Shown: one piece after another, positions 14,091 through 44,017 of the stretch
Layout of the letters: every line of letters begins with the position of its first letter
Position numbering within the stretch: the stretch's first letter is position 1
DNA from: Bacteroidaceae bacterium
GTDB lineage: Bacteria > Bacteroidota > Bacteroidia > Bacteroidales > Bacteroidaceae
Assembly: GCA_017940565.1 (NCBI GenBank)
Contig: JAGAYH010000003.1
Span: forward strand, 1 to 44,087
Direction of reading: 5' to 3'
Length of the DNA: 44,087 nt
Made by a program: the position numbers and the translations under genes
The notes under the pieces: model-generated
The model's database searches: none
The model's input: only the letters and a program-made list of their open reading frames with translations
Told to the model about the DNA's origin: nothing

Positions 14091-14969
14091 ATGAACAAGA
14101 AAGTATTTGCCATTGGTGCAGCCGTACTCGGTGCCCTCCTTATTGCAGGATTGGTGTATCTTGGTCTGAATCTGCGCCAGGAACGTCAGGAAAAAGCCGA
14201 GCTGGAAGCGCTCGCAGCCATGGACAAACGCGAGATGGAGAATGAATATAAGGAGTTTGCCCTGCAATATGACGAACTCAAGCGCTCCATCCGCAACGAT
14301 AGCCTCTTGCAACGCCTCACTGAGGAGGAGCAGAAGGTAAGTGATTTGCGCGAAGAACTGAGACGGACAAAATCAAACGATGCCCGCGAGATACAACGTC
14401 TGAAAAAAGAGCTCGCAACCGTGAGAGCCGTCCTACGGAGTTACGTATTGCAAGTGGACAGTCTGAACCGGCTCAACGAAAGTCTGCATCGCGAGAACGA
14501 AGCCGTGAGACAGCAATACCAGGCAGCCACAGAACAAGTGTCGGCTCTGAACTCGGAAAAGCAGAATCTGACAGAGAAGGTGGCTATAGCCGCCCAACTG
14601 GATGCTACGGCCGTATCTATTCTGCCGCAGAACAAACGTGGCAAGGATGCAAAGCGCGTTAAGGACATCACACGTTTCACTGTTGCGTTTACGATATCAA
14701 AGAATATCACGGCGCAAACGGGTGAGCGCCACGTTTATGTCAGACTGCTCAAACCCAACGGCGAGGTTCTTTCGCAGCAAGGCAGTGCCGCCTTCGAGAA
14801 TACCTCAGTTGGCATCTCGGCCCAGCGAGTTATTGAATACACTGGCGAAGAACAGCGCGTCACAGTCTATGTTCCCGTCAACGAATACATAGGTGCCGGC
14901 ACGTTCCGCGTACAAATCATAGCCGACAAGCACCTTATCGGCTCCGGTTCCATAACTATTGACAAGTAG
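14091..14969 (+). CDS. Membrane-anchored coiled-coil protein of unknown function
   Basis: I do not recognise a named family. The 292-residue protein has a short basic N-terminus, one transmembrane helix (about 6-27), and a long charged coiled coil (about 28-170, rich in E, R, K, L and Q) with typical spacing of leucines. A compact beta-rich C-terminal domain follows (about 190-292), containing RHVYVRLLKPNGEVL and a final G-S-G-S-I-T strand. The topology implies that the coiled coil and the C-terminal domain lie outside the inner membrane. It has its own promoter and is followed after 7 nt by a thioesterase, with which it is probably co-transcribed. A role in envelope organisation is possible but not shown by the sequence. 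Confidence 0.85.
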   Translation: MNKKVFAIGAAVLGALLIAGLVYLGLNLRQERQEKAELEALAAMDKREMENEYKEFALQYDELKRSIRNDSLLQRLTEEEQKVSDLREELRRTKSNDAREIQRLKKELATVRAVLRSYVLQVDSLNRLNESLHRENEAVRQQYQAATEQVSALNSEKQNLTEKVAIAAQLDATAVSILPQNKRGKDAKRVKDITRFTVAFTISKNITAQTGERHVYVRLLKPNGEVLSQQGSAAFENTSVGISAQRVIEYTGEEQRVTVYVPVNEYIGAGTFRVQIIADKHLIGSGSITIDK

Positions 14970-14976
14970 GCCGCAG

Positions 14977-15360
14977 ATGGACCTCCGTAAGTTCTTTGGT
15001 GACGACCGCTATGCGCAGCTTAGTGCGGTGGAACTGGTAGAAGCCGACGACGGTCACGCACTGGCTACGATGCTGGTGGGAGATGACCACCTGAATGCTT
15101 CGGGTTTTTGCCAGGGTGGAGCCATATACACGCTGGCAGACTTTGCCGCTGCGGCCGCTATGGCCAGTTGCGGACAGCTGGGGGTGACTCTGACAGCAAC
15201 CGTTTCCTATCTGCGCCCCGTTGAGCGGGGTGTGGTAACGGCGATTGCCCATGTGGTGCACAACCATCGCCGTGTGCCGCAGGTGAAGGTGGAGGTATAT
15301 GATGCTAAGAAACGCCTGATGGCCGTGATGGAGGTTACGGGTTATCGCAAAGGGGAGTGA
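14977..15360 (+). CDS. PaaI-family hotdog thioesterase
   Basis: 127 residues from the ATG at 14977; a TTG nine codons-worth region upstream (14959) overlaps the previous gene and is rejected. A single hotdog fold with the family signature around residues 34-52: L-N-A-S-G-F-C-Q-G-G-A-I-Y-T-L-A-D-F-A. The usual HGG is QGG here, a variant seen in this family. Such enzymes hydrolyse acyl- or aryl-CoA thioesters; PaaI proper acts on phenylacetyl-CoA derivatives. That is suggestive because the convergent operon on the other strand encodes two phenylacetate-CoA ligases, but co-function is only inference. A long bidirectional hairpin separates the two transcription units. Confidence 0.85.
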   Translation: MDLRKFFGDDRYAQLSAVELVEADDGHALATMLVGDDHLNASGFCQGGAIYTLADFAAAAAMASCGQLGVTLTATVSYLRPVERGVVTAIAHVVHNHRRVPQVKVEVYDAKKRLMAVMEVTGYRKGE

Positions 15361-15435: not shown

Positions 15436-15864
15436 TCAGACGAGAGATGGCAGATCTTTCTCAGAAAGTGTGCTAAGCTGGTTTTTGCTTATAGCTTCTG
15501 CGGCCCAAGCGGGATTGTCTGTGCGGAAGATAAGAATGCCTTTGCCATCGACAATGAATGAGTAGAGGTAGGCGATGCTGACTCCCTGGTTGACAAACGA
15601 AGCAATGGCATCGGCGCCACGGCCTGCTTCATTGTCAATTTCAACAGCGAATACTTCAGTCATGTTTACGGCTAATCCTTCTTTTTTCAAGGCCTCGAAG
15701 GCTTTTTGTGGCTCGGTGCAGATGATACGCAGGATTCCGTATTCTACAGTGTCGGCCAGATTGGTGGCGATGATTTGTATGCCAGCGCGTTTAAACAGGT
15801 CAAGCACTTGCAGAAGCGTTCCCTGTCTGTTTTCAATGAAGATGGAGAGTTGATTGATGGTCAT
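15436..15864 (-). CDS. Tandem ACT-domain amino-acid sensor protein
   Basis: 142 residues with two ACT-like units: the first begins QLSIFIENRQGTL (5-17), with the ligand-loop pattern N-R-x-G-T-L; the second starts around VFAVEID (71-77). No catalytic domain is fused. Free-standing ACT proteins bind amino acids and regulate partners. It is the last gene of the aryl-acid operon, 58 nt after the second CoA ligase, so the plausible ligand is an aromatic or branched-chain amino acid. TATATTTG on the minus strand at 15908-15901 fits a -7 element and may give it an additional internal promoter, although no -33 box is clear. Confidence 0.88.
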   Translation of the reverse strand: MTINQLSIFIENRQGTLLQVLDLFKRAGIQIIATNLADTVEYGILRIICTEPQKAFEALKKEGLAVNMTEVFAVEIDNEAGRGADAIASFVNQGVSIAYLYSFIVDGKGILIFRTDNPAWAAEAISKNQLSTLSEKDLPSLV

Positions 15865-15922
15865 GGCTCTTGGTTTTATTTGTTTTACGGATGATTATGT
15901 CAAATATAATATGTTTTATGTC

Positions 15923-17236
15923 TTAGAATTTTTTTCTCAGGTCTTTTACACGTACGGCTTTGCCCTCTTGCCGCGGCAGGGAGCCCGGTGGAACGAGACG
16001 CACACGCGGGGTGACGAGTATTTCGTCGCGCAGGCGTTGCTGTATCTCCTTGGTCAGTTTTTCCAAGTGGCCGTAGTCATCGGTAAAGAGCTCTTGCAGT
16101 TCCACTTCAACAAGCATGGTGTCGTTTTCCGCCGCGCTTTCGAGCGTGATGAGGTAGTCGGTTCGCAGTTGGGGGAACTGGAGCAGGATTTGCTCAATCT
16201 GGATGGGGAATATGTTGACTCCCTTCAGAATTATCATGTCGTCGCTGCGGCCTTTCATGCGGTCAAGGCGTTTGTGCTCGCGTCCGCAGGGACATTTGCC
16301 CGGCAAGATGCGCGTGAGGTCGCGTGTGCGGTACCGCAGCAGGGGCATGGCTTCACGGCGAAGCGTGGTGAGCACCAGTTCGCCAATCTCGCCTTCGGGC
16401 ACAGGCTCCAAAGTCTCGGGATCGACAATTTCAACAATGTAGTAGTCCTCCCAAATGTGCATTCCATTCTGCTCTTTACATTCGAAAGCCACTCCGGGAC
16501 CGCACATTTCGGACATGCCGAAGGAGTTGTAGGCTTTCACGCCGAGCATCTCCTCGATGCGCTGGCGTTGCTCCTCGCTGTGGGGTTCTGCACCAATGGC
16601 GAGCACGCGCAACTTTGTGTCTCTGCGCGGGTCAATGCCTTCGGCTTTCATTACCTCGTAGAGTCGTGCGGCGTAGCTGGGTATGGCGTGAAGTGCAGTG
16701 GTTCCAAAATCTGTTATGAACTTTATCTGGCGTTTTGTGTTGCCTGCCGCAGCCGGTACAGTGAGCATGCCCAGACGTTCGGCGGCGTATTGGAAGCCCA
16801 GGCCGCCTGTGAACATGCCATAGCCTGATGAGTTTTGGAACACATCGCCCGGACGGAGGCCTACCATCCACAAGCATCGCGCCAGAGCCTCTGCCCATGC
16901 GTCGAGATCGGCTTGTGTGTGGAGTATGACGGTGGGATTGCCGGTGGTGCCGCTTGATGAGTGGAGACGGACGCATTTTTCGAGAGGCACGGCTGACATG
17001 CCGAAGGGATAGGTCGCGCGCAGATCTTGCTTAGTGGTAAAAGGTATGCGTCGCAGGTCGTCTAACGTGCGGATGTCTTCGGGATGGAGCCCGCATTGTT
17101 TGAACCGTTCGCGGTAGAATGGGTTAGACATGCAGTGATGTACCGTTTTCTGCAAACGATCCAGCTGAAGCGCTTCAATCTCTGGGCGAGAGAGCGTTTC
17201 AAACTCGGGATGGAAGTAGGGTGAATTGATGTCCAT
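15923..17236 (-). CDS. paaK: Phenylacetate-CoA ligase (second copy)
   Basis: AMP-forming aryl-acid:CoA ligase; 437 residues. AMP-binding P-loop SSSGTTGNPT at 93-102; adenylate-site region SFGMSEMCGPG; hinge with YRTRDLTRI and the CPCGR cysteine knot; C-terminal lysine near QEGKAVRV that drives adenylation. Starts 4 nt after the stop of a paralog encoded just upstream (17241-18551), which is similar along its full length but clearly diverged, for example SGYGMFTGG against YGYGLFTGG. The pair probably differ in aryl substrate (phenylacetate, 4-hydroxyphenylacetate, indoleacetate). Context is indolepyruvate oxidoreductase and an aminotransferase in the same operon. Confidence 0.9.
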   Translation of the reverse strand: MDINSPYFHPEFETLSRPEIEALQLDRLQKTVHHCMSNPFYRERFKQCGLHPEDIRTLDDLRRIPFTTKQDLRATYPFGMSAVPLEKCVRLHSSSGTTGNPTVILHTQADLDAWAEALARCLWMVGLRPGDVFQNSSGYGMFTGGLGFQYAAERLGMLTVPAAAGNTKRQIKFITDFGTTALHAIPSYAARLYEVMKAEGIDPRRDTKLRVLAIGAEPHSEEQRQRIEEMLGVKAYNSFGMSEMCGPGVAFECKEQNGMHIWEDYYIVEIVDPETLEPVPEGEIGELVLTTLRREAMPLLRYRTRDLTRILPGKCPCGREHKRLDRMKGRSDDMIILKGVNIFPIQIEQILLQFPQLRTDYLITLESAAENDTMLVEVELQELFTDDYGHLEKLTKEIQQRLRDEILVTPRVRLVPPGSLPRQEGKAVRVKDLRKKF

Positions 17237-17240
17237 TTTT

Positions 17241-18551
17241 TTATTTCAGTTGTCGTTTGTCTAATACGAATTTACTCTTTCCCTGGCTGCGTTCTATGGT
17301 GCCCGGAGCTTTGAGCTGTACTTTTGCACTTATGGATAACACGCTCTTAAGTTTGTTTGCGAGCCGTTTTTCAAGGGTTCCGAGTGCGCCGAGTGTGTCA
17401 AACTGTTCGGTGAAATATTCCTGCCGCACTTCGACCTGCACCTGCAGCGTGTCAAGATTGTTGACGCGGTCGATGACCAGCAGATAGCGTGGGGCAAATT
17501 CGGGCATGCTCAGCACTACACTCTCTACCTGTGACGGGAATACGTTGATGCCGCGGATGATAAGCATATCGTCGCTGCGACCGAGGATGCGGCCCATTCT
17601 GACACTGGTGCGGCCGCAAGGACATGGGTCGTTCATGAGCGAACACAGGTCTTTGGTGCGGTAACGCAGGAGTGGCATGCCTTCTTTTGTGAGTGTGGTG
17701 AAAACAAGTTCGCCCACTTCGCCGTAAGGCAGGGGTTGGAGTGTCTCGGGGTCGATTATTTCCGGGAAGAAGTGGTCTTCGCAGATATGAGAGCCGTGTT
17801 GTTCCTGGCACTCATAGCTTACACACGGTCCCATGATCTCGCTGAGGCCATACAGGTTGAATCCTTTCAGCCCCAAGCGGCTTTCTATCTCGGTGCGCAT
17901 GCTTTCTGTCCAGGGCTCAGCTCCGAATGCGCCGACACGAAGTCGGATATCGTTTTTACTAATTCCCATATGGTCCATCGTTTCTGCGAGATAGAGTGCG
18001 TAAGATGGGGTACAGGCAATGCCAGTTATGCCCAGGTCACGAATGAGCCGCACGTGTTTCTCCGTATTGCCGGTTGAGGTGGGCACTACAGCGGCTCCGA
18101 GGTTTTCCACACCGTAGTGTGCGCCAAGTCCTCCCGTAAATAGTCCGTAGCCATAGGCAACTGAGAAAATGTCGTCGCGACTTACGCCGTAGGCTGTCAG
18201 ACACCGTGTCATGCATTCGCTCCATACTTCGATGTCTTTGCGGGTATAGCCGACGATAGTGGGGTTACCCGTGGTGCCGCTCGAGGCATGCACGCGGATA
18301 ACTTCGCTTTTGGGCGCAGCTTGCAGGCCGAAGGGATAATTGTCGCGCAGGTCCTGTTTCGTAGTAAAGGGTAGCTTGTGTATATCTTCGATGGAACGGA
18401 TGTCATCTGGCGTCACGTCCATCTCTTGTAGTTTGTTACGGTAGAAAGGTACGTTGTGGTAAACGTATTTCACGATTTTGTGGAGACGTCGTCCTTGCAA
18501 GGCACGCATCTCGTCGGTACTCATGCACTCTTTGTTCTGGTTCCAAATCAT
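17241..18551 (-). CDS. paaK: Phenylacetate-CoA ligase (first copy)
   Basis: 436-residue AMP-forming ligase activating an aryl acid to its CoA thioester. P-loop SSGTTGNPT at 90-98, LPFTTKQDLRDNYPFG (60-75) as in the paralog, GLSEIMGPCVSYEC adenylate-site segment, CPCGRTSVRMGRI, and a C-terminal lysine in RSQGKSKFVLD. It is 29 nt downstream of the aminotransferase gene and 4 nt upstream of the second copy. In the usual aerobic phenylacetate pathway paaK sits with paaABCDE; none of those is here, so oxidation of phenylacetyl-CoA by epoxidation is not the role. Its neighbours instead point to exchange between aryl-CoA and arylpyruvate. Confidence 0.9.
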   Translation of the reverse strand: MIWNQNKECMSTDEMRALQGRRLHKIVKYVYHNVPFYRNKLQEMDVTPDDIRSIEDIHKLPFTTKQDLRDNYPFGLQAAPKSEVIRVHASSGTTGNPTIVGYTRKDIEVWSECMTRCLTAYGVSRDDIFSVAYGYGLFTGGLGAHYGVENLGAAVVPTSTGNTEKHVRLIRDLGITGIACTPSYALYLAETMDHMGISKNDIRLRVGAFGAEPWTESMRTEIESRLGLKGFNLYGLSEIMGPCVSYECQEQHGSHICEDHFFPEIIDPETLQPLPYGEVGELVFTTLTKEGMPLLRYRTKDLCSLMNDPCPCGRTSVRMGRILGRSDDMLIIRGINVFPSQVESVVLSMPEFAPRYLLVIDRVNNLDTLQVQVEVRQEYFTEQFDTLGALGTLEKRLANKLKSVLSISAKVQLKAPGTIERSQGKSKFVLDKRQLK

Positions 18552-18580
18552 AATCTGAATTAGGCTTTAGTTCTATTCTC

Positions 18581-19888
18581 TTAATGATGCTGATTAAATA
18601 GTTTCATGCGTGTGTCAAGGAGATCATACTGGTTCTCTTTTACGAACGAGGTGCAAATACGCAGGCCTTGCTGCGCGCTACCTGTGGAGTCGAGCGCCAT
18701 GGTGCTCACTCCGTAGTAGAGCAACTCCTTTGCCAGTTCTTTTCCGCTTAATCCGGGATAGGCTATGGTGAAGTAGAAACCGTCGGCAACGGGTTTGTCG
18801 AGGTCTTTGTCATATACGATGTAGAATCCATGGCGGGTAAAAATCTCCTTCAGCCGTTTTGCGCGGCGGCCGTATTCACTTACGTCTTTCCGGAAATCAT
18901 ATATGCCGTCGCTTGCGGCTTTCAGCATGGCGGCAAGGGCATATTGGGCACTATGGCTCGTTCCTGAACTGAGTGCATACAGGACTCGGTGGATGAATAC
19001 CGGACCAAACTGGCCGTTACCATAGCGATGGGTCAGAGCAGGGTATTCCTTGTGATAAAGTTTGTCGGAGATGCAGCTTACGCCAATGCGTTCGCCTGCG
19101 TAGCTGAAGGCTTTGCTGCCGCTTATGAGCAGCACGTAGTTGTCCGTGTACCTTGCCACCGTGGCCTGGTAGGGTTCTTGGAAAGGTATGCTGAGGTTTT
19201 GGCGGAAATCCATGGCGAAGTAGGCCAGGTCCTCAAGCACGATGGTGCCGTACTTGGTTGCCAGTGTGCCTATGGTTCGCAATTCTTCTTCGTTGAGGCA
19301 CACCCACGATGGGTTGTTGGGGTTGCTGTAGATGATGGCGGCGATGTGTCCTTCTTTCAGGTAGCTTTCGATTTTCGGCCCCAGCTTGTCGCCACGGAAG
19401 TCGTATACGTCGAAACTCTCATACTTTGTTCCCATGACCTTGCACTGCTGTTTTTGCACGGGAAAGCCCGGGTCGATGAACAAGATGGTATCTTTCTTCT
19501 CGTCGGCTTGCGATGATGTGAGGAACGAGGCGTATGTGCCCTGCATGGAGCCGCATACGGGCACGCATCCTTCGGGTGCGAGGTCGATGCCTATATATGC
19601 TTTGATAAATCGTGAGGCTTCCTGTTTGAGTTGTGGCAGTCCGTTAATGTCAGGATAGAGACGGGCAATGCCGTTCTCCAACGCTTTTATTTGTGCATCC
19701 ACTCCGTATTGTGACGGAGGCAATCCGGGAACGCCCATTTCCATCTTGATGAATTCCTGGCCGCTGATGCGTTCCGACTGCTGGGCCACGGCCACGATTT
19801 CGCGGATGGTGGCGTTGCTGAAGTCGGTGATGCCCAAGGCCTGTATGGCGTTGTCAACAATGTTGGCCGGTATAGGTGTTTCTTTCAT
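18581..19888 (-). CDS. Fold-type I PLP aminotransferase, probably aromatic
   Basis: 435-residue class I/II aminotransferase. PLP contacts: N191-N192-P in YSNPNNP, D220 and Y223 in LEDLAYF, Schiff-base K259 in SGSKAFSYAGERIG, and a C-terminal arginine in GLRICTSF for the substrate carboxylate. Its start overlaps the iorB stop by 4 nt (ATGA), so the two are translationally coupled, which argues that the amino acid made or used corresponds to the 2-oxoacid of the oxidoreductase (indolepyruvate, phenylpyruvate or 4-hydroxyphenylpyruvate). The omega-amidase gene at the head of the operon suggests glutamine could be an amino donor. Substrate is inferred from context, not from residues. Confidence 0.87.
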   Translation of the reverse strand: MKETPIPANIVDNAIQALGITDFSNATIREIVAVAQQSERISGQEFIKMEMGVPGLPPSQYGVDAQIKALENGIARLYPDINGLPQLKQEASRFIKAYIGIDLAPEGCVPVCGSMQGTYASFLTSSQADEKKDTILFIDPGFPVQKQQCKVMGTKYESFDVYDFRGDKLGPKIESYLKEGHIAAIIYSNPNNPSWVCLNEEELRTIGTLATKYGTIVLEDLAYFAMDFRQNLSIPFQEPYQATVARYTDNYVLLISGSKAFSYAGERIGVSCISDKLYHKEYPALTHRYGNGQFGPVFIHRVLYALSSGTSHSAQYALAAMLKAASDGIYDFRKDVSEYGRRAKRLKEIFTRHGFYIVYDKDLDKPVADGFYFTIAYPGLSGKELAKELLYYGVSTMALDSTGSAQQGLRICTSFVKENQYDLLDTRMKLFNQHH

Positions 19889-20463
19889 CGTTTTGTCGTG
19901 TTGTAACCCAGGTCAAAGGCTTTCAAGTTGTCGGATATGATTTTTTCTCCCTTTGACTTAAAAAAATTTATGATTGAGTTGCGCAAATCTTCAGGGCTTA
20001 TGATTTCAATGTAAGGCGCTGCCATGCCGAGCAAAATCATGTTTGCGCTTTTGGGTGTCTGGGCTTCTTTGGCCATGGTCTCAATGTTGAGCCGGGCTAC
20101 TTGAGGTTGTGAGGCCAATTCCTGTTGCAGCGCCTCCGTGTCAGGATAGTTTGGGATGTTGATGAGAGGTTGAGAACTCGTAACCAGCCATCCTGTGGGC
20201 TTCAGCCAACTTACGTAGCGCAATGCCTCCATTGGTTCCATGGATATGATGACATCGGTTTCGCCTTGTGGGATGAGGTCGCTGTAAATGGGGTCGTGGC
20301 TCAGACGGAGATGGCTCTGCACGTCGCCACCCCGTTGGCTCATGCCGTGTACTTCGGCTTGTTTCAGGTAAAGTCCGGCGTTGGTGGCCGCGTCGCCTAT
20401 GACGGTTGCGATGGAGAGGATGCCTTGTCCTCCCACACCGGATAATATAATGTCTTTTTTCAT
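19885..20463 (-). CDS. iorB: Indolepyruvate oxidoreductase subunit beta
   Basis: 192-residue gamma-type domain of the 2-oxoacid:ferredoxin oxidoreductase family. The N-terminal signature ILSGVGGQGILSIATVIG (5-22) and HGMSQRGGDVQSHLRL are diagnostic. It pairs with IorA to interconvert arylpyruvate plus CoA with aryl-acetyl-CoA plus CO2 and reduced ferredoxin. Overlaps iorA by 4 nt upstream and the aminotransferase by 4 nt downstream. Length is normal. Confidence 0.93.
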   Translation of the reverse strand: MKKDIILSGVGGQGILSIATVIGDAATNAGLYLKQAEVHGMSQRGGDVQSHLRLSHDPIYSDLIPQGETDVIISMEPMEALRYVSWLKPTGWLVTSSQPLINIPNYPDTEALQQELASQPQVARLNIETMAKEAQTPKSANMILLGMAAPYIEIISPEDLRNSIINFFKSKGEKIISDNLKAFDLGYNTTKR

Positions 20464-22061
20464 TGTTGCTGCTGTTTTTGTTTGCGTAGTTTACGGTTTA
20501 GTGTCTGTATGCACTCGCGGCGCGGGATAATGACCGACACGCCTTTGTAGTTGATTTCCTCACGAATGATGCGGGTGATTTCTTCCATGTTCTTGGGCAG
20601 GGGTACAACCACTCTGACATGTTCCGGCTCCACTCCAAGCCCCAGGCAGATGGCTTCAAACTTGTTCGTTCCGGCACTGTCTTGCCCGCCAGTCATAGCT
20701 GTAGTGAGGTTATCTGAAATGACGACGGTAATGTTTGCCTTGTCGTTCACGGCATCCAGCAGTCCCGTCATGCCACTGTGGGTAAACGTTGAGTCACCTA
20801 TGACAGCGATGGCCGGCCAAAGGCCTGCATCGGCGGCACCTTTGGCCATGGTGATGCTGGCTCCCATATCGACGCAACTGGCCAGGCTGTTGTAGGGAGG
20901 AAGTGCGCCCAGGGTGTAACAACCTATGTCACCGAAGATGCGTGAACCTTCATACTCTGCGGCCACTTTGTTAAGCGCCGTGTAAACATCCCTGTGGCCG
21001 CAACCGGGACAGAGTGCGGGGGGCCGGCCTACGACATTTTTGGCCCCGGGTGCTGTCTGGCGTTTCTTGCCTAAGGCTTGTGCCACGTTATCCGGCGTCA
21101 GTTCGCCCGTACGTGGCAGTTCGCCCGTGAGACGTCCCTTTACGGGATAGTCGCATCCGAGCAGGGCCTTCACATCTTGTTCCACAACGGGCTGACCGTC
21201 CTCTACGACGAGGACAGCTCGGCTTTGGGCGGCCAATTGTTTGATTTTTTCTTCCGGAAGAGGGTATTGCGATATCTTAAGTACACCCGCCAGACCCTCA
21301 GCTTGGGCTTCTTTGACATAGTTGTAGGCTATGCCGCAGGCAATGATGCCTATGCCTTTCTCCGTGTCGGCTTTTTCAAGGCGGTTGTAGGCTGAAGTTT
21401 CGCTCAGCTGCAAGAGGGCGGGTTGTTTCTCAAGCAGGCTGACGTATTGCTTGCGTGCAATGGCCGGCAGGAGCACCCAGTGTTTGCCTTCGTCCGGTGC
21501 CAGCGGATTGGTGCCGGACGTGGTGCCTACGGCAACCGATGCGCGGCTGTGGGCAAGGCGTGTGACGATGCGCAGAAGCACCGGCAGGCGGAGCGACTCT
21601 GACATGCGGTAGGCTTCGCTCATCATGTCGTAGGCTTCCTGCTGGTTGCTCGGCTCGAGAACCGGTATTAAAGCAAATTTGCCGTAAAAGCGTGAATCTT
21701 GCTCGTTTTGAGACGAGTGCATGCTTGGGTCGTCGGCGGCCAGAACTACGATGCCTCCTTTTACGCCGGTGAGGGCGGAATTGACAAAGGCATCGGCGCA
21801 GACATTCATGCCTACGTGTTTCATGCAGACCAATGCGCGTTTGCCGGCATACGACATGCCCAGTGCGGCCTCCATGGCTGTTTTTTCGTTCGTGCACCAA
21901 CGGCTGTGTATGCCGCGTTCTTTGGCCAGCGGGTGGCTTTGTATGAATTCGGTTATCTCAGTTGAGGGGGTACCAGGATAGGCATACACGCCGCTCAGTC
22001 CGGCGTGGATGGCACCAAGTGCGATGGCTTCATCGCCTAATAGGAGTTTGTGTACTGTCAT
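20460..22061 (-). CDS. iorA: Indolepyruvate oxidoreductase subunit alpha, without ferredoxin domain
   Basis: 533-residue fused alpha/beta subunit that binds thiamine diphosphate. N-terminal pyrimidine-type domain with GVYAYPGTPSTEI (24-36); C-terminal TPP domain with CPGCGHRDVY (351-360), GDSTFTHSG (422-430) and the metal ligand region NLTTAMTGGQ (451-460). The typical archaeal IorA continues with two [4Fe-4S] ferredoxin motifs; here the protein ends soon after IIPRRECIQTL in a basic glutamine-rich tail, with no CxxCxxC motif, so an external ferredoxin must serve it. CPGC at 351-354 may hold the proximal cluster. The gene is 36 nt downstream of the omega-amidase gene. Confidence 0.92.
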   Translation of the reverse strand: MTVHKLLLGDEAIALGAIHAGLSGVYAYPGTPSTEITEFIQSHPLAKERGIHSRWCTNEKTAMEAALGMSYAGKRALVCMKHVGMNVCADAFVNSALTGVKGGIVVLAADDPSMHSSQNEQDSRFYGKFALIPVLEPSNQQEAYDMMSEAYRMSESLRLPVLLRIVTRLAHSRASVAVGTTSGTNPLAPDEGKHWVLLPAIARKQYVSLLEKQPALLQLSETSAYNRLEKADTEKGIGIIACGIAYNYVKEAQAEGLAGVLKISQYPLPEEKIKQLAAQSRAVLVVEDGQPVVEQDVKALLGCDYPVKGRLTGELPRTGELTPDNVAQALGKKRQTAPGAKNVVGRPPALCPGCGHRDVYTALNKVAAEYEGSRIFGDIGCYTLGALPPYNSLASCVDMGASITMAKGAADAGLWPAIAVIGDSTFTHSGMTGLLDAVNDKANITVVISDNLTTAMTGGQDSAGTNKFEAICLGLGVEPEHVRVVVPLPKNMEEITRIIREEINYKGVSVIIPRRECIQTLNRKLRKQKQQQQ

Positions 22062-22097
22062 CTGCTGTACGTATTTCTTTATGTTTGTTTTTAGGGT

Positions 22098-22868
22098 TTA
22101 TTGCACAGTTTTTATTGTGAATGGGTCGGCATCGGCCAGTACCGGAAACTTCTTGCGGAAGGCCATGAGGGCTTCAAGGTCAATCGTGGCCGTTGCCGTG
22201 TCAGCGATGTTGCGCTGGCACTGGGCCAAGAAGTGTCCGTATGGGTCTATGATGGCGCTGCCGCCGCAATAGGTGCAGTTGGGGTCACGGCCCACGCGGT
22301 TGACGCCGACTATGTAGCACTGGTTTTCGATGGCGCGTGCACTTAGCAGTGTCTCCCACACACGTATGCGGCTCTCCGGCCAATTTGCCACGTAGAGAAT
22401 GGCATCATAGTCGCCCCGGTTGCGGCTGAAGACGGGGAATCGCAAATCGTAGCACACCTGAAGCAGGAATCGGATGCCGCCATAGGTGACAACGACGCGC
22501 CGGGTGCCGGCTGTGAAATGTTTGTCCTCACCTCCGTAGGCGAACAAGTGGCGTTTGTCGTACCATACCGGTTCCTGGTCGGGACATACGAAGTAGAAGC
22601 GGTTGTAATAGTGGCCTTGGCTCTGAACTACGACGCTTCCGGCCAGGGCAGCCCCGGTCTCGTGGCTGATTTGCCGCATCCAGTGCAGTGTTTCGCCCTG
22701 TTCGTCTTCAGCAAAACCCGCCGGCTCGGTGGCAAATCCCGTGCTGAACATTTCGGGAAGCACGTAAAGCCCGCTGCCGGGGTTCATGCGGATGGCCGTC
22801 TCGGCGTTTTGCCGGTTGAGCAACGGCTTGTTCCACACGATATTTTGTTGTAGAACGGTTACATTCAT
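22098..22868 (-). CDS. Nitrilase-superfamily omega-amidase (YafV/Nit2-like)
   Basis: 256-residue C-N hydrolase with the catalytic triad E39 (LPEMFSTGF), K105 (YDKRHLF) and C139 (QVCYDLRFP). The MFSTGF context after the glutamate and the overall length match the YafV/Nit2-type omega-amidases, which hydrolyse 2-oxoglutaramate (the keto acid of glutamine) to 2-oxoglutarate and ammonia. That activity removes the product of glutamine-linked transamination and makes it irreversible. It heads the operon with iorA, iorB and the aminotransferase, so a glutamine transaminase/omega-amidase cycle for aromatic amino acids is a reasonable inference. A weak -7-like TAATTTTA lies upstream on the minus strand near 22895. 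Confidence 0.87.
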   Translation of the reverse strand: MNVTVLQQNIVWNKPLLNRQNAETAIRMNPGSGLYVLPEMFSTGFATEPAGFAEDEQGETLHWMRQISHETGAALAGSVVVQSQGHYYNRFYFVCPDQEPVWYDKRHLFAYGGEDKHFTAGTRRVVVTYGGIRFLLQVCYDLRFPVFSRNRGDYDAILYVANWPESRIRVWETLLSARAIENQCYIVGVNRVGRDPNCTYCGGSAIIDPYGHFLAQCQRNIADTATATIDLEALMAFRKKFPVLADADPFTIKTVQ

Positions 22869-22965
22869 CTTCGATGGTCTTATTGAGGTGTAAAATTACC
22901 ATTTTTACATGAAACATGGGTCGGAATTTGGAAAAATGTCGCTCATCGGGTGTAAAAAACAGCAG

Positions 22966-23054: not shown

Positions 23055-23090
23055 AAAGAAAAACCGCAGCCCGACGGTTGTGGGCTGCGG
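23055..23090 (-). terminator. Terminator of the ilvE-trmB-mrp operon
   Basis: On the minus strand a 9-bp stem (CCGCAGCCC / GGGCTGCGG) with a 9-nt loop is followed by TTTTTCTTTC. It begins 23 nt after the mrp stop. Confidence 0.88.
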
Positions 23091-41116: not shown

Positions 41117-41662
41117 CTACTGTATTTTGCGTATGATGTCCATGCCGCGCAGCAGTGCGGCCTCGTTTTCGGGGATTTGGCTGTGGTGGCGTTGGGGCAG
41201 GGTCTTGTAGAGTGCCTTGCGCACGTTGTCCACGCTGACGATGGGGTGCACTTTGATGAGCCCGCCGAGTATGAACATGTTGAACGTCTTGATGTTCTTC
41301 GCTTCGGTGGCGGCGTCCATGGCGTTGATTTCGTAGATGTCGATGTCGCTGCGTCCGGGGCGCTCCATGATGCCGTAGGGGTCGTAGATGAGGGCGCCTC
41401 CGGGGCGTATCTGGCTTACGAAGCGCTCCAGCGAGGGCTGGTTGAGCAGTATGGCGGTGGTGTAGCTGCTCAGTATGGGCGATGCGATGGGGCTGTCGCT
41501 GACGATGACGGTGGTGTTGGCCGTGCCGCCGCGTTGTTCGGGGCCGTAGGCCGGCAGCCAGCTCACTTCTTTGCCTTCCTCGAGGCCGGCGTAAGCGAGC
41601 AGTTTGCCCATGGAGAGGACGCCCTGGCCGCCGAAGCCTGATATGATGAGTTCTTCTTTCAT
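41117..41662 (-). CDS. 2-oxoacid:ferredoxin oxidoreductase, gamma subunit
   Basis: 181 residues with the gamma-subunit signature ELIISGFGGQGVLSMGKLLA (3-22) and PAYGPEQRGGTANTTV. Part of a four-subunit Vor/Kor-type enzyme (branched-chain 2-oxoacid or 2-oxoglutarate). Last gene of the operon, 7 nt after the beta subunit. It belongs to the same broad family as iorB but is clearly a different system. Confidence 0.92.
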   Translation of the reverse strand: MKEELIISGFGGQGVLSMGKLLAYAGLEEGKEVSWLPAYGPEQRGGTANTTVIVSDSPIASPILSSYTTAILLNQPSLERFVSQIRPGGALIYDPYGIMERPGRSDIDIYEINAMDAATEAKNIKTFNMFILGGLIKVHPIVSVDNVRKALYKTLPQRHHSQIPENEAALLRGMDIIRKIQ

Positions 41663-41669
41663 GATAGGT

Positions 41670-42431
41670 TTACTGGTCTTTGAGGTCGCCGAGGCGATAG
41701 AGTTTGAAAATGTTTTCTTCCATCCACCGGTTGGCTTCCACGGGTGTCTTTTTCCATCCGGCGCTGCATGTGGAGAGCACTTCGACGAGGTTGGAGCCCT
41801 TTCCGCTCATGGCGTTTTCGAAGGCGTGGCGCAGGGCGCGCTTGGTCTTGTTGATGGCGGCCACGCTGTGCACGCTCTGCCGCGAGACGTAGGCGGTGCC
41901 GGGCAGTGTGGCGGCCATGTCGGTGATGTTGAGGGGATAGCCGTGGAGCTCCGCCTGGCGTCCGTAGGGGCAGGTCGAGGTCTTCATGCCCAAGGGCGTG
42001 GTCGGGGCCATCTGTCCGCCGGTCATGCCGTAGATGGCGTTGTTTATGAAGATGACTGTTATCTTCTCGCCGCGGTTCAGGGCGTGTATGGTCTCGCAGG
42101 CGCCGATGCAGGCCAGGTCGCCGTCGCCCTGGTAGGTGAATACGAGGCGGTCGGGCCAGAGGCGTTTGCATGCCGTGGCCACAGCCGGGGCGCGCCCGTG
42201 GGCGGCTTCGAGCCAGTCGACGTCGAGGTAGCGGTAGGCGAACACGGCACAGCCCACGGGGCAGATGCCTATGGTTTTCTCCTGCAGATGCATCTCGTCG
42301 ATGATTTCGGCGATGAGCTTGTGCACCACGCCGTGCGAGCAGCCGGGGCAGTAGTGCATGCCGGTGTCGTTCATCAGGCGCGGTTTGCTGTAGACGAGGT
42401 TCTGGGGTTGCAGTATGTCTTCTCTTGTCAT
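41670..42431 (-). CDS. 2-oxoacid:ferredoxin oxidoreductase, beta (TPP) subunit
   Basis: 253 residues. CPGCSHG (28-34), TPP/Mg motif QGDGDLACIG (101-110) and NNAIYGMTGGQMAPTTPLG are intact. This is the KorB/VorB-type beta chain that binds thiamine diphosphate and an iron-sulfur cluster. Substrate is ambiguous between 2-oxoisovalerate and 2-oxoglutarate. A small membrane-protein gene separates it from the alpha subunit gene, with only 4 nt between them. Confidence 0.92.
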   Translation of the reverse strand: MTREDILQPQNLVYSKPRLMNDTGMHYCPGCSHGVVHKLIAEIIDEMHLQEKTIGICPVGCAVFAYRYLDVDWLEAAHGRAPAVATACKRLWPDRLVFTYQGDGDLACIGACETIHALNRGEKITVIFINNAIYGMTGGQMAPTTPLGMKTSTCPYGRQAELHGYPLNITDMAATLPGTAYVSRQSVHSVAAINKTKRALRHAFENAMSGKGSNLVEVLSTCSAGWKKTPVEANRWMEENIFKLYRLGDLKDQ

Positions 42432-42435
42432 GGTT

Positions 42436-42669
42436 TCAGGGCTTTTTGGCGGAGAGCATGCGTATGCACACTTCTGCCATTTTCACTATTATGGCTGCGA
42501 AGCAGCAGATGTACGACGGCCAGTGGTTGTGCGGGAAGGCGAAGTAGAGCACCATCGTGGCCAGTGCGGTGATGATGAAGGCGAGGTTGAGCCAGTTGCG
42601 CAGCGTGAACCATTTGTCCTTCAGCGGTGCCGGCTTACCCTGGCGGCGGGGCAGTGTGTCGTTGGTCAT
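42436..42669 (-). CDS. Small two-helix membrane protein in the oxidoreductase operon
   Basis: I do not recognise a family. 77 residues: hydrophilic basic N-terminus (1-22), first hydrophobic helix about 26-45 (LNLAFIITALATMVLYFAF), a short HNHWPS turn, and a second helix about 51-70 containing two cysteines, then a basic tail. Both ends would face the cytosol. Start is 14 nt after the alpha-subunit stop and its stop is 4 nt before the beta-subunit start, so it is embedded in the operon. It might dock the soluble enzyme or its ferredoxin to the membrane; that is inference. Confidence 0.8.
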   Translation of the reverse strand: MTNDTLPRRQGKPAPLKDKWFTLRNWLNLAFIITALATMVLYFAFPHNHWPSYICCFAAIIVKMAEVCIRMLSAKKP

Positions 42670-42683
42670 GGCGTACTCCTTAA

Positions 42684-43784
42684 TTATATTAGGTTGATTT
42701 CCTTCAGGTGCAGTTTCACCTGGTCTTCTATTTCCTGCGGGCTGGGCACCATGCCTCCCATGCGGCCGTAGAAGTGGACGGGCGTGCGTCCCTCGACGGC
42801 GGCCCTGACGTCTCGCACCATTTGCCCGGCGTTCATTTCGGCCACCATGATGGCTCTGGCGCGGCCTGCCAGGGCGGCGATTTCCTTTTCGGGGAAGGGC
42901 CAGAGGGTGATGGGGCGCAGCAGGCCGGCCTTCACGCCCTGGCGGCGCAGGTTGCCCACGGCTTCCTTGCAGATGCGGGCCACGCTGCCGAAGGCGGTGA
43001 GCACGATGTCGGCGTCGTCGCAGAGGTAGGTCTCGCAGCGCACCTCGCTCTGGCGTATCCGGAGATATTTTTCCTGCAGCCGCAGGTTGCGCTCTTCCAT
43101 GATGGCCGGGTCAAGTTCGAGCGAAGTCATGATGTTGGGCTTTCGCCGGCCGACACCGTGGCCGTTGACGGCCCAGGGACACTCCCGGGCTATTTCTTCC
43201 TCGGTGCGCCGCGGGCGTTGCGGGGGCAGGACGACCTTTTCCATCATCTGGCCGATGACGCCGTCGGAGAGTATCATGGCCGGGTTGCGCCAGCGGAAGG
43301 CCAGCTGGAAGGCCAGGTCGACGAAGTCGGCCATCTCCTGCACCGAGGCCGGTGCGAGCACGATGGTCTGGTAGTCGCCGTTGCCTCCGCCCACGGTGGC
43401 CTGCAGATAGTCGCTCTGGCTGGGCTGTATGGTGCCCAGGCCTGGGCCTCCGCGCTGCACGTTGACGATCAGGGCGGGTATTTCGCACACGGCCATGTAC
43501 GACATGCCCTCCTGCATCAGGGCCACGCCGGGGCTCGACGAGGTTGTCATGACGCGTTTGCCGCTGCCGCCGCCTCCGTAGAGCATGTTGATGGCGGCCA
43601 CTTCGCTTTCGGCCTGCAGCACGACCATGCCGGTGGTCTCCCAAGGCTTCAGCAGGCTCAGCGTTTCGAGTATCTCCGACTGGGGTGTGATGGGGTAGCC
43701 GAAGAATCCGTCGCAGCCGCAGCGTATGGCGGCGTGGGCGATGGCTTCGTTGCCTTTCAGCAGCACATATTCGTTGTCTTTCAT
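42684..43784 (-). CDS. 2-oxoacid:ferredoxin oxidoreductase, alpha subunit
   Basis: 366 residues from the ATG at 43784 (the frame to 43853 overlaps the ferredoxin gene). Opens with VLLKGNEAIAHAAIRCGCDG (8-27) and FFGYPITPQSEI, then QAESEVAAINMLYGG and TTSSSPGVALMQEG, as in VorB/KorA alpha subunits. The C-terminal transketolase-like domain is complete. Its ATG overlaps the ferredoxin stop by 4 nt. Confidence 0.92.
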   Translation of the reverse strand: MKDNEYVLLKGNEAIAHAAIRCGCDGFFGYPITPQSEILETLSLLKPWETTGMVVLQAESEVAAINMLYGGGGSGKRVMTTSSSPGVALMQEGMSYMAVCEIPALIVNVQRGGPGLGTIQPSQSDYLQATVGGGNGDYQTIVLAPASVQEMADFVDLAFQLAFRWRNPAMILSDGVIGQMMEKVVLPPQRPRRTEEEIARECPWAVNGHGVGRRKPNIMTSLELDPAIMEERNLRLQEKYLRIRQSEVRCETYLCDDADIVLTAFGSVARICKEAVGNLRRQGVKAGLLRPITLWPFPEKEIAALAGRARAIMVAEMNAGQMVRDVRAAVEGRTPVHFYGRMGGMVPSPQEIEDQVKLHLKEINLI

Positions 43785-44017
43785 GGGTTGTCGGTTTTGG
43801 TTCGGTATATGGTGATGCATCCGTCGGGGCATACCACGCCGCAGGCGGTGCATCCCGTGCAGCGCTCCTCGTCTTGTTGTACCACGTAGGGGTAGCCCTT
43901 GCGGTTCACCTTACGTTCGGCCACCTTAAGCAGGCCCAGGGGGCAAGCCGCGATGCACAGGGCGCAGCCCTTGCAGCGGTCGGTGTCGATAAGGATGGCT
44001 CCTCTCATTTTGCTCAT
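43781..44017 (-). CDS. 2[4Fe-4S] ferredoxin subunit
   Basis: 78 residues with two CxxCxxCxxxC motifs: C15, C18, C21, C25 and C53, C56, C59, C63. This is the delta (ferredoxin-like) subunit that collects electrons from the TPP chain. MRG at 44008 is an alternative start. Overlaps the alpha gene by 4 nt and begins 2 nt after the stop of the upstream, truncated gene. It could also be the external ferredoxin needed by IorA, which lacks its own, but that is speculation. Confidence 0.93.
   Translation of the reverse strand: MSKMRGAILIDTDRCKGCALCIAACPLGLLKVAERKVNRKGYPYVVQQDEERCTGCTACGVVCPDGCITIYRTKTDNP

Follow-up and report, generated by a model that had tools for sequence, protein, structure and literature searches.

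A probable arylacetate-assimilation operon in a Bacteroidaceae bacterium and related gene clusters in green sulfur bacteria

The closest described relative of the system considered here comes from Bacteroides, in which indolepyruvate:ferredoxin oxidoreductase (IOR) colocalises with an AMP-forming ligase for which an assay showed arylacetate-CoA ligase activity, and the authors suggest a role in biosynthesis (PMC13285125, 2026). From the rumen, the formation of phenylalanine from phenylacetate has been reported (Allison 1965 and Amin 1997, both cited in PMC7356843). As for indoleacetate, quantifiable amounts came from 0 of 66 Bacteroidota strains in one screen, and the same paper cites previous accounts of low-level production in some Bacteroides (PMC13290082). 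Here we describe a seven-gene operon in 44,087 nucleotides of DNA from a Bacteroidaceae bacterium (contig JAGAYH010000003.1 of assembly GCA_017940565.1; this whole stretch is called the window below), in which the genes iorA and iorB for such an oxidoreductase stand together with those for an amidase, an aminotransferase, two PaaK-like ligases and an ACT-pair protein. We consider that an anaerobic bacterium probably uses this operon to assimilate (salvage) arylacetates. This is the best supported reading, with the direction favoured but open, and it draws on the pairing of the ligase with the ACT protein, on the clusters in green sulfur bacteria and on the presence of pheA in a sister cluster.

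Gene organization and enzyme families of the operon

All seven genes listed in the first-pass annotation were found in one direction on the minus strand between positions 22868 and 15436, in the order YafV-type amidase, iorA, iorB, class I/II aminotransferase, two PaaK-like ligases and ACT-pair protein (Table 1), and both the gene assignments and the chemistry proposed there are judged sound. At the core junctions, iorA overlaps iorB (20463-20460) and iorB overlaps the aminotransferase gene (19888-19885) by a 4-nt ATGA, and 4 nt separate the two ligase genes. The other gaps are 36 nt (amidase to iorA), 29 nt (aminotransferase to ligase 1) and 58 nt (ligase 2 to ACT). Given its recurrence among relatives, the seven-gene cluster exceeds chance; the gene families, the intact catalytic residues and the conserved clustering are all read directly from the DNA.

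IorA is a short form of the large subunit. It scores 528 bits against TIGR03336 (IOR_alpha), under the cut-off of 650.9, and matches profile positions 2-542 of 595, so that it is not a full-length alpha subunit above the cut-off; the stretch missing from its C-terminus is one which we take to be the ferredoxin domain. Short, below-cut-off IorA proteins also occur in Phocaeicola oris (L034), Parabacteroides distasonis (L103) and a green sulfur bacterium (L215). IorB passes the equivalog model for the beta subunit, NF005324, with 286.5 bits (cut-off 222). IorA carries the domain TPP_enzyme_C, for thiamine pyrophosphate (TPP), as well as candidate cysteines for a proximal cluster, and Cys351, 354, 381 and 517 are invariant in 141/141 sequences compared. 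In a profile alignment (probability 94), its CxxC and third cysteine fall on those of the Vor beta subunit of the window, while the fourth lies outside the aligned region. We read IorA as holding one proximal iron-sulfur cluster, for which these cysteines are the predicted ligands, and without the ferredoxin domain an external carrier would act directly at this cluster. A second operon for a 2-oxoacid:ferredoxin oxidoreductase, of the VorB type, is located near the end of the window (41117-43853, minus strand; NF005507, 520 bits, cut-off 399).

Both ligases are AMP-forming enzymes according to PF00501 and PF14535, and both stay under the cut-off (646.3) of the PaaK model TIGR02155, with 571.3 bits for ligase 1 and 496.1 bits for ligase 2. 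Their nearest solved chains are phenylacetate-CoA ligases, 2y4o for ligase 1 (439.5 bits) and 4r1l for ligase 2 (680 bits), and the Ser/Thr of the P-loop is invariant in 72 and 41 aligned sequences, respectively (counts of invariant residues here and below exclude amidases shorter than 200 aa, aminotransferases and ligases shorter than 380 aa, and matches under 150 bits). The ACT protein matches PF19571 (ACT_8) with 198 bits and has 2f06 as a solved relative. In loci L033-L172, 66 of the 68 ACT copies scoring at least 60 bits lie within 250 bp of a same-strand ligase gene, and ACT adjoins ligases also at loci without iorAB. The ACT-pair protein is thus likely an end-product sensor that would switch off the ligase when the amino acid is plentiful, and a sensor at the entry step suits the direction of synthesis. 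Among the papers listed in our literature search, none combines a phenylacetate-CoA ligase with an ACT domain, and PMC13285125 was the only one found that deals with the Bacteroides IOR together with its ligase.

The nearest solved chain of the aminotransferase is 3g0t (putative aminotransferase, 496 bits), and its Lys259 is invariant in 71 aligned sequences. The amidase passes the YafV equivalog model NF007757 narrowly (256.9 bits, cut-off 249), has 2e11 as its nearest solved chain and keeps E39, K105 and C139 of the Glu-Lys-Cys triad, which are invariant in 42 aligned sequences including that of the window. It is plausible that glutamine would be the donor, with an omega-amidase pull via 2-oxoglutaramate.

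Table 1. Features of the operon and its surroundings in the window
Feature	Position	Strand	Family evidence	Remark
YafV-type CN-hydrolase, probable omega-amidase	22098..22868	-	PF00795 + NF007757	
iorA, arylpyruvate (indolepyruvate) oxidoreductase large subunit	20460..22061	-	TIGR03336	short form
iorB, small subunit	19885..20463	-	NF005324	
PLP aminotransferase class I/II	18581..19888	-	PF00155 (Aminotran_1_2)	
ligase 1, PaaK-like AMP-forming arylacetate-CoA ligase	17241..18551	-	AMP-binding + AMP-binding_C_2	
ligase 2, PaaK-like AMP-forming arylacetate-CoA ligase	15923..17236	-	AMP-binding + AMP-binding_C_2	
ACT_8 tandem ACT protein	15436..15864	-	PF19571	candidate amino-acid sensor of the ligase step
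PaaI-like hotdog thioesterase	14959..15360	+	TIGR00369	convergent neighbour, outside the operon here
terminator-like hairpin	23064..23090	.		between the upstream ApbC-like gene and the operon; suggestive only

Promoter and terminator scans of the region gave no excess over chance: 10 terminator-like sites were found as compared with 10.7 expected, the hairpin in Table 1 being one of them, and a search with Rfam at gathering thresholds returned two tRNAs and nothing else. A perfect inverted repeat, TGTAAAA-N7-TTTTACA (22889-22909), which lies 20 bp upstream of the amidase start and is the sole copy in the window, was considered as an operator. This 21-bp palindrome was rejected, since neither it nor looser versions of it occurred upstream of the operons of relatives (0/140).

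Occurrence among Bacteroidales and green sulfur bacteria

The 80 named loci are the best 80 by similarity to the window iorA, that is, close relatives by design, and many of them are cut by contig ends. In the same-strand neighbourhood of their iorA, ligase 1 is present in 63, the aminotransferase in 61, ACT in 56, ligase 2 in 40, the amidase in 33 and a PaaI homologue in 12. The gene order varies among them, with the identical seven-gene order in P. oris (L034), and no same-strand ligase is present in 6 of the 44 loci that have at least 7 kb on both sides. On the iorA tree (141 sequences), ligase linkage requires 13 changes, as compared with at least 36 in 300 shuffles. Versions of the operon are found in the culturable Segatella baroniae B14, P. 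distasonis and Phocaeicola species (L088, L103, L034, L080).

In a phylum-wide sample, iorA is present in 20/109 genomes, the own genome of the window included, and 18 of the 20 belong to one family. The FMO antenna protein is encoded in 18/18 of these, which identifies the family as Chlorobiaceae; the one other genome with iorA (G303) has iorAB only. In all nine Chlorobiaceae loci examined (9/9), iorA, iorB, ligase 1, ACT and an aminotransferase gene are on one strand, with ACT and the aminotransferase gene about 4 kb further along in L218. The ligase 1 homologues are 58-61% identical to that of the window, while the aminotransferase has no detectable similarity to the window aminotransferase. 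An aminotransferase of this green-sulfur type (57% identical), and not of the window type, also occurs in a Bacteroidales iorAB-ligase-ACT-PaaI cluster (L179:12085-13284). Chlorobiaceae are obligate photoautotrophs, which are unlikely to ferment amino acids, and prephenate dehydratase is encoded in 18/18 of their genomes. Ligase, oxidoreductase and aminotransferase genes are therefore linked in both Bacteroidales and Chlorobiaceae, which fall into one phylum of the genome set.

Among 20 further stretches, fetched mostly for a ligase near pheA, near an ADP-forming acyl-CoA synthetase or away from iorAB, eight carry the window-type aminotransferase and ligase together with a VorABC-type enzyme in place of IorAB, which suggests that the module is portable. 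Family f72 was sampled with three genomes, and two of them carry pheA inside their ligase-aminotransferase-Vor cluster; in one of these two, a flavodoxin gene (PF00258; L174:9821-10345) is located between pheA and the aminotransferase gene.

The relation to phenylalanine synthesis was examined in 295 evenly drawn Bacteroidales genomes (G000-G294), in which iorA counted as present at E values of 1e-60 or lower and the ligase at 1e-80 or lower. Chorismate synthase was found in 279 genomes, the ADP-forming synthetase family in 242, iorA in 241, prephenate dehydrogenase above the cut-off in 135, prephenate dehydratase in 126 and the ligase in 62. In control genomes, prephenate dehydratase and chorismate synthase were each detected in 14/14, prephenate dehydrogenase in 13/14 and the ADP-forming synthetase family in 11/14. 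The ligase is a marker of phenylalanine prototrophy, as 58/62 ligase-bearing genomes and 68/233 of the others have prephenate dehydratase (Fisher 3e-21), or, by family, 29/31 and 26/89, respectively (2e-10), with kinship handled only by this collapsing to families, which counts against the weight of the association.

Prephenate dehydratase is missing in 169/295 genomes, 147/169 of which keep iorA, as compared with 94/126 of those having it, and iorA occurs without both prephenate dehydratase and prephenate dehydrogenase in 133 genomes. A role of the operon as replacement for an absent pheA was considered and dropped, because iorAB is mostly alone where prephenate dehydratase is absent (34/37 loci fetched from such genomes, one of the 34 being a contig of 3,645 bases) and the ligase goes with prephenate-dehydratase-positive genomes. 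Among the other three loci, an aminotransferase gene is present in those of G021 and G139, and a ligase with ACT solely in that of G123; this genome (98% complete), with iorAB-ligase-ACT and neither prephenate dehydratase nor prephenate dehydrogenase, is the sole near-complete exception found with iorA. It is probable that iorAB has two lives, one linked to the ligase in prototrophs, as in the window, and one stand-alone in presumed auxotrophs, where it is possibly oxidative. When 52 mostly stand-alone loci were clustered (a set that includes a few ligase-bearing ones, e.g. L131, L145 and L166), no conserved metabolic neighbour of iorAB was found except YjbQ, of the secondary thiamine-phosphate synthase family. 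In 17/52 loci its gene directly precedes iorA in the same orientation (TIGR00149, tested on L160; 10706-11179), a position that may reflect the requirement of IorAB for TPP.

Direction of the route and competing explanations

In the route that we infer, including its substrates, direction, electron donor, number of iron-sulfur clusters, amino donor and control by ACT, a PaaK-like ligase would activate phenylacetate, 4-hydroxyphenylacetate or indoleacetate using ATP and CoA. IorAB, with TPP and one iron-sulfur cluster and fed directly by reduced ferredoxin or flavodoxin, would then carboxylate the aryl-CoA to the arylpyruvate, and the aminotransferase would convert this into the amino acid. If glutamine is the donor, the removal of 2-oxoglutaramate by the YafV-type amidase would render the amination step irreversible, and abundance of the amino acid would shut the ligase through the ACT-pair protein as its sensor. 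The route would add to the pheA-tyrA pathway of the organism and may reverse under amino-acid excess.

Several observations weigh against this assimilatory route or against parts of it. The own genome, which is 63% complete, already has a separate pheA-tyrA operon on another contig, where prephenate dehydratase, aminotransferase, DAHP synthase-chorismate mutase and prephenate dehydrogenase genes form one run. Considered together with the co-occurrence of ligase and prephenate dehydratase, this implies that the route supplements synthesis, and the operon looks like supplementary salvage rather than a substitute for missing synthesis. The glutamine part is weakened in two ways, as the best NCBIfam match of the aminotransferase reaches 70.5 bits against a cut-off of 415, and the amidase is present in 35/80 named loci. 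The remaining points concern the direction, and they are the ground for the strongest competing explanation, namely that the operon is mainly oxidative. In that case the amino acid would pass through the arylpyruvate to the aryl-CoA with a gain of reduced ferredoxin, a thioesterase or an ADP-forming synthetase would set the aryl acid free, and recapture of leaked acid would be all that the AMP-forming ligases do. ADP-forming acyl-CoA synthetases are of a type tied to amino-acid fermentation, and one accompanies the ligase in seven of the eight Vor-type loci, which speaks for oxidation. Moreover, 36/62 ligase-bearing genomes encode such a synthetase, including G059 and G165 of the family of the window, as compared with 206/233 of the others, so that it is depleted, in favour of assimilation, but not excluded; the failure to find it in the near relative G258, and in the own genome as far as this is complete, would count against oxidation. 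The PaaI-like thioesterase (TIGR00369, 71 bits, cut-off 36.6; TIGR02286 PaaI, 69.6 bits, below 118.9) is a plausible oxidative exit, and its gene faces the operon in the window but shares the operon strand in the 12 named loci counted above. The stand-alone iorAB of genomes without prephenate dehydratase would also fit oxidation. Furthermore, B. fragilis, which encodes iorAB, is reported to excrete phenylacetate (PMC11304471), and the conversion of phenylalanine to phenylacetate has been linked to the IOR of B. thetaiotaomicron (Zhu 2023, cited in PMC13285125). These reports suggest that the core steps may run both ways. On the other hand, two AMP-forming ligases, an ACT gene at the ligase, the clusters in green sulfur bacteria and pheA inside the cluster of the two f72 genomes all argue against a mainly oxidative operon, which we regard as unlikely. 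The assimilatory direction proposed at first is favoured by the green sulfur clusters, the ligase-ACT pair and pheA in the sister cluster, and it is unsettled by the phenylacetate of B. fragilis and the report on the B. thetaiotaomicron enzyme. In its favour we also count the co-occurrence of ligase and prephenate dehydratase, the assay of the Bacteroides ligase, the strain screen without quantifiable indoleacetate and the reports from the rumen.

A second explanation modifies assimilation rather than opposing it: the amidase would make the aryl acid from an aryl-acetamide and feed the ligase, instead of processing 2-oxoglutaramate. The breadth of the CN-hydrolase superfamily agrees with this, as do the 5/35 amidase-bearing named loci in which no aminotransferase is seen (contig ends cut some of these short), but the amidase passes the YafV-type model and the aminotransferase is present in the other 30/35, so that we hold this variant to be improbable. 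Least probable of all is that the acids are not mainly aromatic, with one or both ligases serving branched-chain or other acids and the operon rebuilding other amino acids: the ligase scores under the curated PaaK cut-off, the pairing of the same ligase and aminotransferase with VorABC in the eight sister loci and the direct carboxylation of branched-chain acids reported from the rumen (PMC7356843) would agree with it, whereas the closest solved relatives are named phenylacetate-CoA ligases, the partner here is IorAB, and a Bacteroides homologue is active as an arylacetate-CoA ligase, the methods naming only three aryl acids as substrates (PMC13285125).

Beyond the assimilatory route itself, a wider joint reading can be offered tentatively, as less likely than not. 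Here ACT_8 would be a dedicated feedback subunit of the ligase, and Bacteroidota and green sulfur bacteria would share a feedback-controlled, ferredoxin-driven pathway from arylacetate to amino acid. Its portable module would consist of a constant ligase and ACT with exchangeable partners, namely IorAB or VorABC as oxidoreductase and either of two non-homologous aminotransferase families, and IorA would take electrons directly at its proximal cluster.

Significance and comparison with known systems

The operon is a concrete candidate gene set for the conversion of phenylacetate to phenylalanine that has been reported for rumen bacteria. An assimilatory role would make gut Bacteroidales consumers, and not only producers, of phenylacetate, p-hydroxyphenylacetate and indoleacetate, which bears on who sets the levels of these host-active compounds, and the ligase-ACT pair offers a testable control point.

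Compared with known systems, the oxidative Stickland branch for tyrosine (HpdDEFG, HpdJ and HpdK; described in PMC13285125) shares with the operon a 2-oxoacid:ferredoxin oxidoreductase acting on arylpyruvates, but its phosphotransacyl and kinase steps make ATP, while the ligases here are AMP-forming. With the pairing of glutamine transaminase and omega-amidase it has in common that an aminotransferase and a YafV-type amidase are in one operon, although the aminotransferase here exceeds the cut-off of no curated functional model. The reductive IOR route of methanogens leads likewise from aryl acid through aryl-CoA and arylpyruvate to the amino acid; here the pair of AMP-forming PaaK-like ligases, the ACT-pair protein, the clustered aminotransferase and the YafV-type amidase are present, and IorA ends before the ferredoxin part with which the family model closes. 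The nearest system is that of Bacteroides with IOR and an AMP-forming ligase (PMC13285125), which has the same enzyme pair in the same bacterial group, with a biosynthetic direction already suggested. In a word search of the main text of that paper, the terms amidase, ACT domain, Chlorobi, green sulfur and feedback gave no hits, and aminotransferase was found for clostridia alone. In comparison with this main text and our literature search, the ACT-ligase pair, the amidase, the partner swap, the association with prototrophs and the green sulfur bacteria are additions, as is the short IorA, which was not searched for in print. The idea of the direction is thus already published for Bacteroides, and it gains strength and becomes testable through the conservation of the gene set and its occurrence in green sulfur bacteria.

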